The notes under the pieces: generated by a model | What the model saw: only the letters and a program-made list of their open reading frames with translations | Database searches by the model: none | What the model was told of the DNA's origin: nothing | Assembly (NCBI GenBank): GCA_013154085.1 | Contig: JAADDE010000036.1 | Span: 1 to 62,896, forward strand | Origin: Thermoproteota archaeon | GTDB lineage: Archaea > Thermoproteota > Thermoprotei_A > Sulfolobales > Ignicoccaceae | Reading direction: 5' to 3' | Length of the DNA stretch: 62,896 nucleotides | Made by a program: the position numbers and the translations under genes | Part shown: positions 28,713-47,259 of the stretch, one piece after another | Layout of the letters: each line of letters opens with the position of its first letter | Numbering within the stretch: the stretch's first letter is position 1

Positions 28713-30245
28713 GTGGGACTGCGCAGACCGGAGCAGTACATAGAGGCGATCAGAGAAAAGAGCAGAAGAGCCCAGATCTACGTCTTCGGCGAGAGGGTTG
28801 AGGACGTCACAAAGCATCCCTTCACTATGCCGGCTGTAAAGGCGTTCGAGTGGACCTACAAGGCCCCTTGGGACCCGGACTTCTACGACGAAGAGATGGG
28901 AGTCCACCTAGCCAAGGCGTACTCTCCTTTCATAAACGAAGAGGTTAACCGGTTCAATCACATTCATCAGAGCACTAAGGACTTAGCCATCAAAGTTAAG
29001 TACTTCCGCAAGCTCTCGCACAAGGCCGGATCGTGCTTCCAGAGATGCGTCGGCTGGGACGCGATAAACACCATAAGCATAGTCTCTTATGACATAGACA
29101 AGTGGTACGAGAAGAAAGGAGAGAGGCCGGAGCACTTCGAGCACTTCGGGACGTACTACGAGAGGTTCTTGAAGTTCTTGAAGTACGTCCAGAAGGAAGA
29201 CATAGCGCTGGCCGGGGTCATGACGGACGCCAAGGGAGTCAGGTCCTTGAGGCCGCACCAGCAACCCAACAAAGACGTCTACGTCCACGTTAAGGAGGTC
29301 ACCGACGAGGGCATAGTTGTAAGGGGAGCAAAGGCAAACATAACTGGAGTCATAGCAACAGAAGAAATGATAGTAATGCCTACGAGGGCCATGACTGAGG
29401 CCGACAAGGACTTCGCGGTCGCCTTCGCCGTCCCCGTAGACGCGGAGGGGGTTACTATGGTGGTTGGGAGGTACACCAACGACGCCCGCCGCTTCGAAGA
29501 GCCCAAGGTAGACATCCTCCCGGGCGTGTTCCCGGCCGAGGCCATAGTAATCTTCGACGACGTCTTCGTTCCTTGGGAGAGGGTGTTCATGTTCAGAGAG
29601 TACCAGTTCGCCGCCCAGCTCGTGGAGATATTCTCCAGCTACCACCGCCAGGCTTACGGCGGATGCAAGCCCGGCCTAGCGGACGTCATAATAGGCGGAG
29701 CATACCACTTGGCGAAGCAGATGGACGTGGCTAACAAATGCCATATAAAGGAGAAGCTGACGGAAATGATCTTCCTAGCAGAGGCCATGCACGCCGGAGG
29801 CCTCGCGGCGGCTTGGGAGGGCAAGAAGGCCCCTTCGGGCACATACTACGTTGACCAGATGATGGCAAACGTAACAAAGCAGATGGTAACCAGATTCCCG
29901 TACGAGATAGCGCGCCTCGCACACGACATAGCCGGCGGGATAATAGGCACCTTGCCCCCCTACAAGGACTTCATAAGCGAGAAGATAGGCAAGTATCTGC
30001 AAGAGTACCTCCAGTGCCTCCCGGACTACCCAGCCGAGTGGAGGTTCCGCGTGCTCAGGCTATTGGAGAACCTAACGCTCAGCGTGGAGTTCCTAATAGA
30101 GAGCGTGCACGGAGCCGGAAGCCCGGAGGCGCAGAGGATCTGGATGAGGAGGTTCTACCCGTTGGAAGAGATGGAGGACGTGGCATTGAGGCTGGCCGGC
30201 ATAAATCCAGAGGAAAAGCCGGAGAGGAAGAAGAAGTCTCAGTAG
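28713..30245 (+). CDS. abfD: 4-Hydroxybutyryl-CoA dehydratase
   Basis: Radical-type dehydratase that converts 4-hydroxybutyryl-CoA to crotonyl-CoA, the key step of the regeneration half of the dicarboxylate/4-hydroxybutyrate CO2-fixation cycle. The 510-residue product has the [4Fe-4S] ligands known from the Clostridium enzyme: Cys 108 and Cys 112 in SCFQRC, and His 311 and Cys 318 in HRQAYGGC. The flavin-binding acyl-CoA-dehydrogenase-like fold is seen in PTRAMTEADKDFAVAFAVP and DDVFVPWERVFM. GTG at 28713 with a clear TATA box and GGTGAG. A stand-alone gene; its 3' end overlaps pyrC by 7 bases convergently. Expected to be highly expressed and cytoplasmic. Confidence 0.97.
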   Translation: MGLRRPEQYIEAIREKSRRAQIYVFGERVEDVTKHPFTMPAVKAFEWTYKAPWDPDFYDEEMGVHLAKAYSPFINEEVNRFNHIHQSTKDLAIKVKYFRKLSHKAGSCFQRCVGWDAINTISIVSYDIDKWYEKKGERPEHFEHFGTYYERFLKFLKYVQKEDIALAGVMTDAKGVRSLRPHQQPNKDVYVHVKEVTDEGIVVRGAKANITGVIATEEMIVMPTRAMTEADKDFAVAFAVPVDAEGVTMVVGRYTNDARRFEEPKVDILPGVFPAEAIVIFDDVFVPWERVFMFREYQFAAQLVEIFSSYHRQAYGGCKPGLADVIIGGAYHLAKQMDVANKCHIKEKLTEMIFLAEAMHAGGLAAAWEGKKAPSGTYYVDQMMANVTKQMVTRFPYEIARLAHDIAGGIIGTLPPYKDFISEKIGKYLQEYLQCLPDYPAEWRFRVLRLLENLTLSVEFLIESVHGAGSPEAQRIWMRRFYPLEEMEDVALRLAGINPEEKPERKKKSQ

Positions 30246-32412: not shown

Positions 32413-32970
32413 TTGAGAAGAGAAGCCTTCTCTTTGTTGTTAATATCCTTGGTTGCGCTGGCCCAGCCTTGGGCCGTGCCGGGATTCAAGGCCGTTTACG
32501 AGTACGAGGCCAACGCCACCGGCATGCTGGCGCTACAAGCGAAGCACACCAAGGGCATAGCTATCTACGAGATACTCAACATAACCGAAGATAAGATATA
32601 TATTAATATTACAATAAAGGCAAAGGTGACAATGCTCAACGGGAGGCAGAAGGACTTCGTCAAGAGCATGGTCACGCCTATACCGCGTGACAAATCGTTC
32701 ATCTTCTTAACCAATGAGAGTTTGAACACGCTAAAGCGGGAGGCAAACCTCACGTGCGTTGGCTACATATGTACGGCGAAGCTCAACAATACCCTTCCTC
32801 TAGCCAACGGACTCACTATGAAGGTGTATACAGAGAACACCTATAACTTGAAAGAAATGCTACTCCAAAGGTCCTTCGTTCACACGGAAGTCTACACAAC
32901 GACTGGAGGGAGATTGCTGGGCAAGCTGGACAACAAGACTGAGCTGATCAAAGCGGGTATCGGCCGGTGA
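32413..32970 (+). CDS. Secreted or membrane-anchored protein of unknown function
   Basis: A 185-residue protein with an N-terminal signal peptide (basic RRE, then a hydrophobic stretch to about residue 18, cleavage near ALAQPWA). The mature part is beta-rich with repeated Asn-X-Ser/Thr sequons (NAT, NIT, NES, NLT, NNT, NKT) and two cysteines close together (CVGYIC) that could form a disulfide. This suggests an exported glycoprotein in the inter-membrane space or outer surface. TTG start. The last 23 bases overlap purF convergently. Confidence 0.7.
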   Translation: MRREAFSLLLISLVALAQPWAVPGFKAVYEYEANATGMLALQAKHTKGIAIYEILNITEDKIYINITIKAKVTMLNGRQKDFVKSMVTPIPRDKSFIFLTNESLNTLKREANLTCVGYICTAKLNNTLPLANGLTMKVYTENTYNLKEMLLQRSFVHTEVYTTTGGRLLGKLDNKTELIKAGIGR

Positions 32971-34207
32971 AGCACCCCATGCAGACCTTCAAGGGCAACA
33001 TCTTTTCCAGCTCCTCGGGAGGGAGCCAGTCTATGCTCTTAGCGCCTATGTACTTTGCTATCTCCTCGTTGCTCATCTGAGCCGCTATCAGCTGGTCCGC
33101 CGGAGGCACCTCGACGCCGTAGGGGCAGTGGCTCACGAGCTTCGGGCTACCTATCAGCACGTCTACGCTGACTGCACCTACCTTGTTCTTCAAGGTTTGG
33201 ATCACCGTCTTCAGCGTCAGGCCCCTAACCACGCTGTCATCTATTATCAATGCCCTCTTCCTCCGGAAGGTGCTCCTTATCGGGTTGAGCTTGAGCTGCA
33301 CTCCCACCACCCTCTCCATCAAGTCCGGCTTGATTGCCGTCCTCGCCTTCCTCCCGGTCGCCACGAAGCCCAGCCGGTAGTCCTTCTTGGCCTCCTTAGC
33401 GTAGCCTATAGCAAAGGGTATTGCGGTCTCGGGTACGCCGACCACGACGTCAACGTCCTTGGGGTAGAGCTGAGCTAACCTCTTGCCTATCTCCTCCCTT
33501 ATTTGATATACCTCGACGCCGTCTATCACCGAGTCCGGCCTGGCGTTGTAGATGTACTCGAACGCGCAAACTACCTTATTGCTGGGGGCTACCTCGACCT
33601 CTTCGAAGAGAAGCTGGGATGCGTAGAAGCCCTTCCCAGGGTCTAGGTCCTTTTTCAAGTCAGCTCCTATGACGTCGAAGGCGCTACTCTCGGACGCGAA
33701 CACCGCCATGTCGAAGCCGAAGCCTCCCAGTTGCAGGGGTCTCAGGCCCGGCGGGGAGCGGTAGGCCAAGAGCTCCCCCGAAGCCGTGAGCGCCAGCATG
33801 CTGAAGGCTCCTTTTATGCCCTTCAGCAGCTCTTTGAGGAGCTCGCCCCCTTCGAGGCCTTGGGACTTGAGCTCGGCCAGCCGAGCGGCCACTTCCCGAG
33901 GGTCAGCGTTGAACAGCCTTCCGTCTAGGACCACCGCGACCTCCGACGGCTCCTCCACGTACGCGTGGTAGCCCGGAGAGGTGCTCCACACTCCGCCTAT
34001 GGCGGCCCAGCCTCCGAGCTTGGTGGCCTGCGGCAGTACCTCGTCAACGAAGCCCTTCCCGCACACCCACTCTATCCTCTCGCCGTCGGAGACGTAGAGG
34101 CAAGCCTCCTCTTGCCCTCTGTGCTGAAGGGCGAGCAACGAGTAGTAGGCAAACCTCGCGACGCTCCAGGCTGGGTCGAACGCCAGCGCTCCGGCAACTC
34201 CGGCCAC
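32948..34207 (-). CDS. purF: Amidophosphoribosyltransferase PurF lacking the catalytic cysteine
   Basis: First step of purine synthesis (PRPP to phosphoribosylamine). The 419-residue product aligns with PurF through its length: HRGQEE near residue 29, YRSPPGLRPLQLGG, FASESSAFD, the PRPP signature LIIDDSVVRGLT and four Fe-S-type cysteines (VVCAFEYIYNARPDS, SHCPYG, CMGCFTG). However the N-terminus reads MAGVAGAL where the family has Met-Cys-Gly: the nucleophile Cys 1 is Ala. Other glutaminase residues also differ (GGVWST in place of the usual HVRYST, LDGRLFN for HNGNLVN). The glutaminase half therefore looks inactive; the enzyme may use free ammonia. GTG start; no alternative start restores the Cys. 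Confidence 0.9.
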   Translation of the reverse strand: MAGVAGALAFDPAWSVARFAYYSLLALQHRGQEEACLYVSDGERIEWVCGKGFVDEVLPQATKLGGWAAIGGVWSTSPGYHAYVEEPSEVAVVLDGRLFNADPREVAARLAELKSQGLEGGELLKELLKGIKGAFSMLALTASGELLAYRSPPGLRPLQLGGFGFDMAVFASESSAFDVIGADLKKDLDPGKGFYASQLLFEEVEVAPSNKVVCAFEYIYNARPDSVIDGVEVYQIREEIGKRLAQLYPKDVDVVVGVPETAIPFAIGYAKEAKKDYRLGFVATGRKARTAIKPDLMERVVGVQLKLNPIRSTFRRKRALIIDDSVVRGLTLKTVIQTLKNKVGAVSVDVLIGSPKLVSHCPYGVEVPPADQLIAAQMSNEEIAKYIGAKSIDWLPPEELEKMLPLKVCMGCFTGRYPL

Positions 34208-34247: not shown

Positions 34248-35738
34248 TCAGTCCTTGCTGAGGGAGAATATCGCGCGGTAGCCGGCCAGCTCGGAGCAAG
34301 CGTTGAAGCCGCCGATCTCAAGCTGGTCCCTCAGCGCCCAGAGCACGCGCAGTGGGTCGATCCACCCCCTCCTAGCTCCCTCCTGCTCGTACAAGCATCC
34401 TAAGGTCAGAAGCACCAGCTTGGCTACCGTGGCCGGGGGCAACAAGCCCGCCTTGTAGCGCTTGTAGCAGTCCTCGCACAGCATGATCCTTAGGAGCTCC
34501 TCCGACTTTTCCAAGAACGACTCCGGAGTGTATATCTCCTCCAGCTCAAGCAGGTTCTTGCTCAGGAACTCGTCTATCCTCTTCAAGTACGTCTCTGGGT
34601 CGATCCTCAGATGCCTTCCGCAGACGGCGCACTGGGGCCGGAAGTGGGACTTCTTTACGAGCTCCTTCCACTTGCATTCGCTTTCTTCCTTCTCCACGAC
34701 CCTTATCATCCTGATCCCGAGTCCTAGAGAGTCGATCTTCCTCTGGACGGGGCACGCGCGGACGCACGCGTTGCACCCCACACAAGCTGCCGGCAAGTGA
34801 AGCAACATAGAGGTAGTCATAGTTGGAGACTTGAGCATTAAGGACCTCGTCGGACAAGCCTCAGAGCAAGCAGTGCACGCGTCGCAGAGGCGCGGGTCCA
34901 CATATACCTCAAACTTGGGATCCAAGGAATAGGACATCTTTATCGCTACCAGCGGCGACAGGTCGTCCGGAAGAGAGTGCTGGCAAGGAGCGGGTTCCTT
35001 CTTTGATGGCGAGATGCATCCCTTAGCGTCGCAGAACTCCCAGCCCAGTACCTTCGTGAAGTAGTCGACTACTATCTGGGCCCTAATTGGTATTCCGAGG
35101 AGCACAAGCGTTCTGTCGGTGAAGTCCTCGGGGGTGAGCTGTAGCGGAGCTTTCCAGACGACCCTCTCGGCGACCTCCGCCTTAGAGGGGGGTATTGCGC
35201 CGAGGAGCTCGTTCGGCGCCAGGCCGGGCATGTCCAAGCTGTAGAGGGGGCAAGCGGCCACGCAGAGGCCGCACGATATGCACTTGTCCGGGTCTATCGA
35301 GACGCGGCCCGCCTTGAGCCTTATGGCATCGGTAGGGCAGACCAGCTTGCACTGAACGCACTTCGGAGACGCGCAAGCAAAGGTGTTCTCCGGCAGGGCG
35401 ACCCACCTGCCCCTTATCCCCCTCTTGACTATTGCTTGGATCGCCTCCCTTCGGGTTACCTTCCCGGAGGGCCTCTCGAACTTTATCGCGTAGTAGGGAG
35501 TCCAGTGCTCGGCCAGCTCCGCTAAGGTCTTGACCACCTCCTCCGGACAGCCCTTGTGGCACAAGAAGAGCCGGTACCAGAAGCCCTCTGCTGCCTCGCG
35601 GGCCGCCTCCACGAGCTTCTCCGGAGGCCCCACAACGACGACGCTGCCCCTCTTCAAGGCCTCCTTCAAATCCCCCTTAAGCTTGGGGTAGTTGGAGAAC
35701 AGCGTGTCCCTCTCTTCGAGCAGCAGAACCTCAACCAT
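34248..35738 (-). CDS. Polyferredoxin-like protein with four [4Fe-4S] motifs
   Basis: About 496 residues. Four cluster motifs appear as two pairs: CVQCKLVCPTDA and CISCGLCVAACP, then CDACTACSEACP and CVGCNACVRACP. Extra cysteine pairs lie further on (CAVCGRH, CEDCYKRY), which may bind zinc or another cluster. The N-terminal 100 residues hold a Rossmann-like nucleotide or corrinoid-style fold (VVVVGPPEKLVEAAREAAEG). No membrane segments. It resembles electron-transfer subunits attached to dehydrogenases or hydrogenases, but no partner subunit is adjacent, so its electron partner is unknown. ATG at 35738; longer frames run through tRNA-Pro and are rejected. Confidence 0.85.
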   Translation of the reverse strand: MVEVLLLEERDTLFSNYPKLKGDLKEALKRGSVVVVGPPEKLVEAAREAAEGFWYRLFLCHKGCPEEVVKTLAELAEHWTPYYAIKFERPSGKVTRREAIQAIVKRGIRGRWVALPENTFACASPKCVQCKLVCPTDAIRLKAGRVSIDPDKCISCGLCVAACPLYSLDMPGLAPNELLGAIPPSKAEVAERVVWKAPLQLTPEDFTDRTLVLLGIPIRAQIVVDYFTKVLGWEFCDAKGCISPSKKEPAPCQHSLPDDLSPLVAIKMSYSLDPKFEVYVDPRLCDACTACSEACPTRSLMLKSPTMTTSMLLHLPAACVGCNACVRACPVQRKIDSLGLGIRMIRVVEKEESECKWKELVKKSHFRPQCAVCGRHLRIDPETYLKRIDEFLSKNLLELEEIYTPESFLEKSEELLRIMLCEDCYKRYKAGLLPPATVAKLVLLTLGCLYEQEGARRGWIDPLRVLWALRDQLEIGGFNACSELAGYRAIFSLSKD

Positions 35739-35790
35739 CTGCGCTCGCGGCGTGGGCGAAGGCGCCGCTAATATTCGGTAGGACCCTAAA

Positions 35791-35801
35791 GATTTAAAAG
35801 C
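35791..35801. promoter_or_regulatory. TATA element for tRNA-Pro and possibly the polyferredoxin gene
   Basis: GATTTAAAAGC centred about 34 bases before tRNA-Pro on the plus strand, the same spacing as the TATA element before tRNA-Lys. On the minus strand it reads CTTTTAAATC, about 58 bases before the polyferredoxin ATG, leaving a 30-base leader. Confidence 0.5.
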
Positions 35802-35830
35802 CCTTCGAAGCTCCCGCCACGGGACTGAGA

Positions 35831-35944
35831 GGGCCCGTCGTCTAGCCTGGACTAGGATGCGGGGTACGCCGGACGTCCCCGCGAGGGAACGGCGCCCGAC
35901 TCGGGTCCCCGTGGCCCCGGGTTCAAATCCCGGCGGGCCCACCA
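35831..35944 (+). tRNA. tRNA-Pro (CGG) with a non-canonical intron
   Basis: Acceptor GGGCCCG/CGGGCCC, T arm CCGGG-TTCAAAT-CCCGG, anticodon stem CGGGG/CCCCG and encoded CCA. The 3' part of the anticodon loop reads TCGGGT, giving anticodon CGG after U33. Between stem and loop lies a 35-base insertion (35865-35899 or 35866-35900, the two cannot be told apart) that can form its own CGCCG/CGGCG stem, as archaeal tRNA introns do. The intron is thus near position 31-33, not at the usual 37/38. The spliced tRNA is 79 bases. Confidence 0.88.
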
Positions 35945-35984
35945 CTCAAAAGCCCCGTCCCGTTCCCTTCACGGGCCCATACCT

Positions 35985-43325: not shown

Positions 43326-43383
43326 ACTGAGCTTGTCCCGCCACGCTCATAACTTTGTAGCTAGCTATCGGTTGGCGGAAAGA

Positions 43384-44133
43384 GCCTTGAAAATAGTGTA
43401 TCCAGAGGCGAAGATATTTCAAAGTCTGATCGATGCCATAGGAAAAATAGTTGACGAGGTAGCCATGACCGCGACGCCGGAAGGAGTCGAGATGAAAGCT
43501 ATGGATCCGGCACAAGTGGTAATGGTAAAGGTGTGGATACCCTCAGAGGCCTTCAGCGAGTACGAGGTAGAGGAGGAGGAAAAGCTGGGCTTCAACATAG
43601 GAGACGTGCTCAAGTTCTTTCGAAGGGCGAAGAAAGGCTACAAGCTGGAGCTCGGAACAGAGGAAGGCGGCTCTAAGATAGAGATAGTACTTGAAGGAGC
43701 CCTCATTAAGAGGTACGTCATACCGAACTTGGACGTTTTGGCTGAGGACTTGCCAGATTTGAGCAACTTAGACTTTAAGGTTAGGGCCCTCCTCTTGGCC
43801 TCAGTTATAAAGGACGCAATAAAAGATATCGAAGTGGTGAGTGACACGATAATAATAGAAGCGCCTAACACCGACACACTGGAGTTCAAAGGCCTCGGCG
43901 CGGCCGAGACTGTGACGCGGGTCACCACCGCGTCCTCAGCGTTGCTCGAGCTGGAGGTCCAAGAACCTTCAAAGGCAGCGTATGATCTGAATTACTTGAA
44001 GCACATAGCTGGGCTGACCAAGGTTTCCGATAACGTAGAGCTGAGGTTTGGAACAGACATGCCGCTGTTGCTGAAGTTTAGCATACTGGCGGGAGGAGAG
44101 GCGGAGTACGTGGTGGCCCCACAAGCCTTATAA
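43384..44133 (+). CDS. pcn: DNA sliding clamp PCNA
   Basis: Sliding clamp for replicative polymerase and repair enzymes. About 249 residues from TTG 43384, which gives the normal archaeal start KIVYPEAKIFQSLIDAIGKI. Also visible: MKAMDPAQVVMVKVWIP, the interdomain connector region after VIPNLDVLAEDLPDL, and the C-terminal LKFSILAGGEAEYVVAPQAL. Crenarchaea often have three PCNA paralogues forming a heterotrimer; only one is here. TTG 43372 is an alternative start. Confidence 0.95.
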   Translation, partial: ALKIVYPEAKIFQSLIDAIGKIVDEVAMTATPEGVEMKAMDPAQVVMVKVWIPSEAFSEYEVEEEEKLGFNIGDVLKFFRRAKKGYKLELGTEEGGSKIEIVLEGALIKRYVIPNLDVLAEDLPDLSNLDFKVRALLLASVIKDAIKDIEVVSDTIIIEAPNTDTLEFKGLGAAETVTRVTTASSALLELEVQEPSKAAYDLNYLKHIAGLTKVSDNVELRFGTDMPLLLKFSILAGGEAEYVVAPQAL

Positions 44134-45686: not shown

Positions 45687-46913
45687 GTGGCGGGTGGCGT
45701 GAACCCCGGCGACACCGCGTGGTTGCTGACGGCATCATCTATGGTACTGTTCATGAGCGTACCCGGCCTCGCGCTGTTCTACGGAGGGCTGGTGAGGTCA
45801 AGAAACGTGCTCAGTACAATGTTCCACGTGTTTGCGGCGTTCAGCATAGCCTTCCTCGCGTGGGTGATAGTGGGCTTCAGCATAGCCTTCGGCGACAGCT
45901 TAGGAGGACTTCTGGGTAATCCCTTCCAGTTCTTCGGAAGCTATCCGACGCGGTTTCCAGAAGTCTGGCCCGGAACGAGCGTGCCCAGCCTAATCTACGT
46001 GGGCTTCCAAGGGGTCTTCGCCGCCATAGCCACAGCGATCATAGCCTCGGCACTGGCCGAGAGAGGAAGGGCCGACGCGTGGATGCTGTTCTCGTTGCTC
46101 TGGGTGTTGCTGGTCTACAGCGTAATAGCCCACTGGGTGTGGGGCGGAGGATGGCTGAGCGCCCTGGGAGCTCTGGACTTCGCCGGCGGCATGGTAGTGC
46201 ACATAAGCTCCGGCTTCTCTGCATTAGTACTGAGCTTTGTAGTAGGAAAGAGAAAATTCGTAAAGAATGTGGAGGTGATACCCCACAACATCCCCTTGGT
46301 GCTCGTGGGCACCGGCATACTGTGGTTCGGCTGGCTGGCGTTCAACGGCGGCAGCGCCGTCGCGGCCAACGCTGATGCAGCGCTGGCTTGGCTGGTCACC
46401 GCAGTCGCGGCTGCCGCCGGAGGGCTTGCGTGGGACCTGGTGAGCCTCAAGGACACGGGCAGGCACAGCACCGTCGCCTTCGCCTCCGGAGTGGTTGCTG
46501 GCTTGGTCGCGATCACTCCGGCCTCCGGCTTCGTAGACCCCCTTTCGGCGATAGTTATAGGCGCAGTAGCCGGCGTGCTGAGCTACTATATGGTCAACTT
46601 CAGGATAAAGAAGGGCTGGGACGAGACGCTTGACGCTTGGGCGGTGCACGGGATGAGCGGCGTCTGGGGCTCCATCGCGACCGGAATATTCGCCAACCCC
46701 GACGTCTCCAGCGCTTCCGGCCTCCTATACGGAAACCTGTGGCAGATGGTGCCCCAAGTGGTCGGGACTGTGGCGAGCATAGTCTACGCTGTGATCGTCA
46801 CCTACGTGCTGGCGAAGATTGTTGACGCGCTGATAGGATGGAGGGTGCCGGAGGAGGTGGAAAAGGTGGGCCTGGACTTGCCCGAGCTCAATGAAGAGGC
46901 ATACAACTTGTGA
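45687..46913 (+). CDS. amt: Ammonium transporter Amt
   Basis: A 408-residue membrane protein with eleven helices. Conserved features: N-terminal PGDTAWLLTASSMVLFMSVPGLALFYGGLVR, WVWGGGWLSALGALDFAGGMVVHISSG with the first pore His, NADAALAWLVTAVAAAAGGLAWD, and DTLDAWAVHGMSGVWGS-like segment (ETLDAWAVHGMSG) with the second His. Takes up ammonium or ammonia for assimilation. GTG 45687 is chosen; GTG 45699 is possible. The 107-base A/T-rich gap before it probably holds its promoter. It forms an operon with glnK. Confidence 0.96.
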   Translation: MAGGVNPGDTAWLLTASSMVLFMSVPGLALFYGGLVRSRNVLSTMFHVFAAFSIAFLAWVIVGFSIAFGDSLGGLLGNPFQFFGSYPTRFPEVWPGTSVPSLIYVGFQGVFAAIATAIIASALAERGRADAWMLFSLLWVLLVYSVIAHWVWGGGWLSALGALDFAGGMVVHISSGFSALVLSFVVGKRKFVKNVEVIPHNIPLVLVGTGILWFGWLAFNGGSAVAANADAALAWLVTAVAAAAGGLAWDLVSLKDTGRHSTVAFASGVVAGLVAITPASGFVDPLSAIVIGAVAGVLSYYMVNFRIKKGWDETLDAWAVHGMSGVWGSIATGIFANPDVSSASGLLYGNLWQMVPQVVGTVASIVYAVIVTYVLAKIVDALIGWRVPEEVEKVGLDLPELNEEAYNL

Positions 46914-46926
46914 GGGGTGATGGGAA

Positions 46927-47259
46927 GTGAAGATGGTTATAGCATTCATTAGGCCCGAGAAGCTTGAGGATGTAAAGGCAGAGCTCGAAAAGGTTGGTAT
47001 ATATCCAATGACTGTGGTGGAAGTCAAGGGAAGGGGTACCCAGAAGGGCATCGAGATAAAGTACCGCGGCGTTCCGGTGAAGATAGATCTAATACCTAAG
47101 GTGCAGTTGGAGCTTATTTTGGAGGACGAAGAAGTGGAAAAGGCAATAAGAGCCATCGTTAAGGCCGCGTATACCGGCAAGCCCGGCGACGGGAGGATAG
47201 TGGTCATTCCTATAGAGAGGAACATAAAGATAAGGGATTATTACGAAAAGCTCAAGTAG
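46927..47259 (+). CDS. glnK: PII signal transduction protein GlnK
   Basis: A 110-residue PII protein that blocks Amt when nitrogen is plentiful by inserting its T loop into the channel. VIAFIRPEKLEDVKAELEKVGI, VKGRGTQKG at the start of the T loop, PKVQLELILEDEEVEKAI and TGKPGDGRIVVIPIERNIKIR near the C-terminus match the PROSITE-type PII features for ATP and 2-oxoglutarate binding. The T loop (IEIKYRGVPV) keeps a Tyr in the usual place. GTG 46927 or ATG 46933. Fourteen bases after amt. Confidence 0.95.
   Translation: MKMVIAFIRPEKLEDVKAELEKVGIYPMTVVEVKGRGTQKGIEIKYRGVPVKIDLIPKVQLELILEDEEVEKAIRAIVKAAYTGKPGDGRIVVIPIERNIKIRDYYEKLK

Follow-up and report, generated by a model that had tools for sequence, protein, structure and literature searches.

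The window, meaning the whole 62,896-nucleotide stretch of DNA that was analysed, comes from an Ignicoccaceae draft genome of 57 contigs that is 82% complete. On its minus strand, at 32948-34207, lies an open reading frame with a GTG start codon whose 419-amino-acid product, a paralogue of PurF, begins M-A-G-V-A-G-A-L; gene and product are called purF' and PurF' here. Directly upstream, at 34248-35945 (-), is a multi-[4Fe-4S] ferredoxin-like ORF that occupies the same position in each of the four genomes examined from the genus, with identity falling to 31% and with a different wider gene order in genome G002. The window also encodes an HpaB-family protein at 28713-30245 (+), which we take to be a candidate 4-hydroxybutyryl-CoA dehydratase of the carbon-fixation cycle, and a PCNA-family sliding clamp at 43333-44133 (+).

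The window protein has the two-domain architecture of canonical PurF (EC 2.4.2.14; E. coli, B. subtilis and Arabidopsis GPRAT2), and its best matches among solved structures are B. subtilis PurF chains (E about 3e-66). The Pfam Pribosyltran domain scored above its cut-off; the glutamine amidotransferase domain did not. Unlike canonical PurF, it falls below the curated equivalog cut-off of the TIGR01134 purF model (240.8 against 350 bits). An AlphaFold model built from two sequences was discarded (pLDDT 31.6). Residue positions were assigned from an alignment of the window protein with E. coli PurF and 207 archaeal sequences, and the Fe-S-type cysteines, aligned to B. subtilis PurF, are listed with their conservation among 85 PurF' sequences:

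32948..34207, minus strand: purF', encoding the 419-aa PurF paralogue without glutaminase residues (ORF; TIGR01134, Pfam)
34202..34204, minus strand: Ala2 codon, in the place of the catalytic Cys1 (alignment)
33986..33988, minus strand: Trp74, in the place of Arg73, the glutamine-carboxylate anchor in E. coli PurF (alignment)
33923..33925, minus strand: Asp95, in the place of Asn101 (alignment)
33566..33568, minus strand: Fe-S-type cysteine C214 (kept in 79/85 PurF')
33275..33367, minus strand: PRTase flexible loop, FVATGRKARTAIKP...QLKLNPIR, with the Arg332 and Lys349 equivalents kept and KNRY and Phe334 lost (alignment)
33215..33253, minus strand: PRPP-binding loop, ALIIDDSVVRGLT (alignment)
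33125..33127, minus strand: Fe-S-type cysteine C361 (kept in 85/85 PurF')
32972..32983, minus strand: Fe-S-type pair C409-x-x-C412 (each kept in 85/85 PurF')

The alignment confirmed the claim of the initial annotation that alanine stands in the place of Cys1. Its second claim, that two further glutaminase-site segments are altered, is borne out by Trp74 and Asp95. Ser75 aligns to Tyr74 of E. coli PurF, so that Cys1, Arg73, Tyr74 and Asn101 of the canonical enzyme are all missing from the window protein; the Gly102 equivalent is kept, and the alignment at position 127 is uncertain. The phosphoribosyltransferase (PRTase) signature and the four Fe-S-type cysteines had been described as intact. 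This holds for the PRPP loop (DDSVVRGLT) and for C214, C361, C409 and C412, which match conserved cysteine positions in B. subtilis PurF, and the PPi loop is also shared with canonical PurF. The flexible loop, however, reads ATGRKARTA where canonical PurF has KNRYxGRTF and differs at residues 326-331; the PRTase half thus departs in part from the canonical form. The equivalents of Y258, P302, T304, R332, K349, D366, D367, R371, G372 and T374 are all present. In E. coli PurF, Arg73, Thr333, Lys349, Arg371 and Thr374 (PMC7953260) and Tyr258 (PMC7056826) are ligand contacts.

Because the genome is a draft, the altered N-terminus might be an artefact of a wrong start, a sequencing error or the decay of a pseudogene. 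A hidden upstream start that restores Met-Cys-Gly was rejected, as the frame holds 11 in-frame codons (APRSGGGRGKE) between the upstream stop and the GTG, none of them for cysteine. The same Ala-Gly N-terminus was found in three further genomes of the genus (71-85% identity; two of them single-contig assemblies), which rules out a sequencing error and means that this protein lacks the cysteine in all four genus genomes examined. The reading frame is intact, and within the genus PurF' is about as conserved as PurF. With identical residues in four genomes, the artefact explanation is already refuted by the homologues, and its probability is practically nil.

The initial annotation had also proposed looking for a second PurF in the genome. 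A profile search of the window's own genome with Pribosyltran identified one: a PurF-like ORF of 438 aa on contig 11, in which a propeptide (MQGQELL) is followed by CGVAAAPW, including the cysteine. This protein carries GHVRYST, the NGNI segment and DDSIVRGTT, exceeds the TIGR01134 cut-off with 381.6 bits, and is 35% identical to the window protein. The window protein is a paralogue and not the only PurF of the cell. As purD and purL are encoded in the genome as well, de novo purine synthesis looks to be present. The suggestion that another protein might supply ammonia to PurF' also gains a natural candidate from the complete canonical PurF on contig 11.

Proteins of this type have been described before. 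Brown et al. (2011, Biol Direct 6:63; PMC3261824) defined a PurF' cluster of Crenarchaeota and reported that the crenarchaea studied that have purine synthesis possess one PurF with an N-terminal cysteine and one PurF' without it, often with Ala or Val in its place, the two genes lying close to each other and to other purine genes. The window protein differs from this PurF' in nothing essential and is a member of the type: it has no N-terminal cysteine, and a canonical PurF is encoded in the same genome. It lies inside the PurF' clade of the phylogeny presented below, whose match to the published cluster we infer from the description of that cluster. One difference is that purF, purF', purD and purL are scattered in the window's genus. 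Methanocorpusculum Mlab_0150, which has Ser at Cys1, is likewise a PurF duplicate without the nucleophile; by its description (PMC3261824) it arose by a recent duplication in one euryarchaeon, outside the old PurF' clade.

Brown et al. proposed ammonia-dependent PurF' activity as one possibility needing a test, and the idea of the initial annotation that the window protein uses free ammonia is the same hypothesis (PMC3261824). No later experimental study of PurF' was found in the open-access literature. The main text of PMC3261824 contains no residue-level account of PRPP-site retention, no strict co-occurrence in a large genome set and no purD adjacency; all three are new here. Their value lies in a better-defined question, which together they make directly testable.

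According to the ammonia hypothesis, PurF' would be a stand-alone PRPP aminotransferase that makes phosphoribosylamine (PRA) from free NH3, in parallel to PurF. The retained PRTase residues fit this, as does the ability of Cys1-to-Ala mutants of E. coli PurF to use ammonia (Mei and Zalkin, as cited in PMC3261824). The initial annotation had further pointed to amt-glnK in the same window. The pair is indeed present, at 45687-47259 (+) (Pfam Ammonium_transp 394.7 bits, P-II 86.5 bits), but the argument drawn from it is weak: 11 kb separate the pair from purF', and PurF', being spread over many families, is not tied to this neighbourhood. The conservation, gene-order and distribution data that follow make this hypothesis less likely than the partner role proposed below.

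To describe conservation across the family, 85 PurF' proteins, 82 PurFs of PurF'-bearing lineages (partner PurFs) and 41 PurFs of genomes with one convincing PurF were aligned; what is counted are individual sequences, which in many cases are related, so they do not represent independent events. Neither Cys1 nor Arg73 occurs in any of the 85 PurF' sequences, position 1 being occupied by Ala (38), Ser (13), Thr (9), Gly (7), Pro (7) and others. His71, Tyr74 and Thr76 are not conserved among them, and in 71 an acidic residue (Asp or Glu) takes the place of Asn101. In the partner PurFs, Cys1, Arg73 and Asn101 are kept in 81/82 and Asp127 in 82/82. Ser or Thr as a substitute Ntn nucleophile in the 22 PurF' proteins that have one of them at position 1 was considered and rejected, because Arg73 is missing there too. 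The loss of the active site throughout the family (nucleophile and glutamine-anchoring Arg in all, oxyanion Asn in nearly all) gives strong support to the conclusion that PurF' has lost glutamine hydrolysis.

The PRPP side of PurF' is far better preserved: Y258 is found in 84/85 sequences, R261, P302, R332 and K349 in 85/85, and within the PRPP loop D366, D367 and G372 in 85/85 and T374 in 83/85. Sites that do not vary among partner PurFs are kept by PurF' at 5/21 positions of the glutaminase half and at 17/26 of the PRTase half (Fisher p = 0.008). These alignments strongly suggest that PurF' has retained PRPP binding. A further set of residues (G193, G196, F197, G300, L348 and P404) is near-invariant in PurF' specifically, which argues that the protein is constrained for something specific, unlike a decaying copy. 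Two losses on the PRTase side suggest that some PurF' proteins may bind without catalysing: R371, invariant in PurF and present as Arg in the window protein, is kept in only 31/85 PurF', and Phe334 is found in 0/85 PurF' against 123/123 PurF. The absence of R371 from most members speaks against a free-standing ammonia enzyme.

A PRPP pocket in which part of the catalytic signature (R371, F334) is missing would suit a sensor, given that the binding sites of nucleotide inhibitors of PurF overlap the PRPP site (PMC7056826). PurF' might accordingly be a regulatory pseudoenzyme, comparable to HisZ, that forms a complex with PurF, senses PRPP or AMP/GMP in its pocket and tunes PurF activity. Strict pairing with PurF is in keeping with such a role; the presence of K349, R332 and D366/D367 in all 85 sequences is more than nucleotide binding alone would need, and a regulatory role appears rather improbable. 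In Thermoproteaceae-like genomes the partner PurF lacks K349 and PurF' has it. Complementary decay, in which PurF' took over the PRTase chemistry, was rejected as something this pattern proves, because K349 is also absent from 21/41 PurFs of genomes without PurF'.

Gene order ties purF' both to purF and to purD. At 63/77 loci, purF is followed by purF' on the same strand within less than 200 bp, and the median distance from the purF stop to the purF' start is 5 bp (62 loci). One locus of the window's order (L058, family f11) reads purQ-purL-purF-purF'-purD-purM. Where all three genes are present at a locus (n=76), purD adjoins purF' in 69 cases and purF in none; among the 14 loci with purF and purF' separated or in inverted order, 12 have purD beside purF'. 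In one lineage purD has moved away and purF-purF' are still together. In the window's genus purF and purF' are far apart and neither adjoins purD. The tandem arrangement of purF' with purF is a further point against a parallel ammonia enzyme.

These arrangements suggest that PurF' is probably linked to PurD. In genomes without PurF', however, purF usually adjoins purD, so the association may be inherited gene order, and gene order alone is no proof of contact between PurF' and PurD. In purine operons purF' stands with purF on one side and purD on the other, a position that also bears on a further explanation, that PurF' uses PRPP for some other acceptor in purine or related metabolism, in a reaction unrelated to PRA formation. 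The residues invariant only in PurF' (G300, P404), which include some in the PPi loop, could be read in this way, and no functional test of PurF' was found in the open-access literature; against such a reaction stand the operon position and the joint presence and absence of PurF' and PurF, and we consider it distinctly improbable.

Among 197 genomes of the order, 77 had PurF-type matches, and 73 of these 77 had at least two; the four with a single match are 56-77% complete. When the survey was restricted to near-complete genomes (>=90% completeness, <=5% contamination; n=118), both paralogues were found in 53, neither in 65 and one alone in 0. The 65 genomes without any PurF-type protein point to repeated loss of purine synthesis within the order. 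That PurF' is never lost alone in near-complete genomes of the order has as its natural reading that PurF' would be non-redundant. Enzymes acting in parallel should sometimes be lost singly, in ammonia-rich or ammonia-poor lineages, and the absence of such cases is a third point against the ammonia hypothesis. Joint loss of genes of the same pathway indicates a shared pathway, not contact. In other families of the phylum, many have PurF/PurF' pairs and others a single PurF. Genome G372 was rejected as an example of PurF without PurF', because its PurF lies on an 8.8-kb contig, has a flexible loop like that of a different family, f23, and looks like contamination.

A quick maximum-likelihood tree placed 33 PurF' rows, the window protein among them, in one clade (SH-aLRT 100), while the partner PurFs are spread over several lineages. 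In this tree, PurF' proteins that are close relatives have partner PurFs from different lineages, a pattern that speaks against tight co-evolution of an interface between the two. In genome G031 (locus L064), PurF and PurF' each cluster with their counterparts from a different family, f50, and in G011, a relative from G031's own family, purF and purF' are about 6 kb apart; this suggests that the G031 pair may have been transferred jointly.

The explanation that we favour, with a confidence a little short of even, is that PurF' is an old purF paralogue that joins PurF in PRA formation, as a partner that binds PRPP but does not hydrolyse glutamine, with PRA going to PurD. Canonical PurF would hydrolyse glutamine, PurF' would bind PRPP within a joint PurF-PurF' assembly, the assembly would make PRA, and PRA would be passed from it to PurD. 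This partner role is preferred to the stand-alone ammonia enzyme and to the regulatory pseudoenzyme because PurF' combines loss of the glutaminase with retention of the PRPP site and is never lost alone. At the level of sequence, it builds on a single origin, joint presence and absence, tandem genes, and purD beside purF' in most relatives. From these observations we infer that PurF and PurF' might associate physically, that the PurF' site might catalyse and not just bind, and that PRA might be handed to PurD.

PurF is taught as a single, self-contained enzyme. The long retention of PurF', with neither protein found without the other in near-complete genomes of the order, would mean that purine synthesis there depends on a second protein at its first step. 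A bolder and more doubtful version of the partner role is that much of the Thermoproteota has an obligate two-subunit enzyme, in which PurF would provide ammonia from glutamine and PurF' would form PRA or hold it for PurD. If true, this would be the first heteromeric PurF known to us, and it might explain how so labile an intermediate can persist in hyperthermophiles. The histidine pathway offers a parallel, as HisZ, an inactive paralogue, is the obligate partner of short HisG in a PRPP-using first step. PurF' would resemble HisZ as an inactive paralogue retained beside its partner in such a step. HisZ, however, is derived from a tRNA synthetase and has no PRPP site, whereas PurF' is derived from PurF itself and keeps the site.

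The survey also encountered a separate PurF-like family of about 515 aa (MLGGLFGV..., with an IDDSIRRGTQ loop), whose N-terminus has no cysteine, in families f24 and f16. Its loci are L174 (G374), L175 (G213), L176 (G414) and L177 (G294). Canonical PurF was looked for in G374 and G414 and none was found, and in these two genomes the protein of about 515 aa may be the sole PurF.
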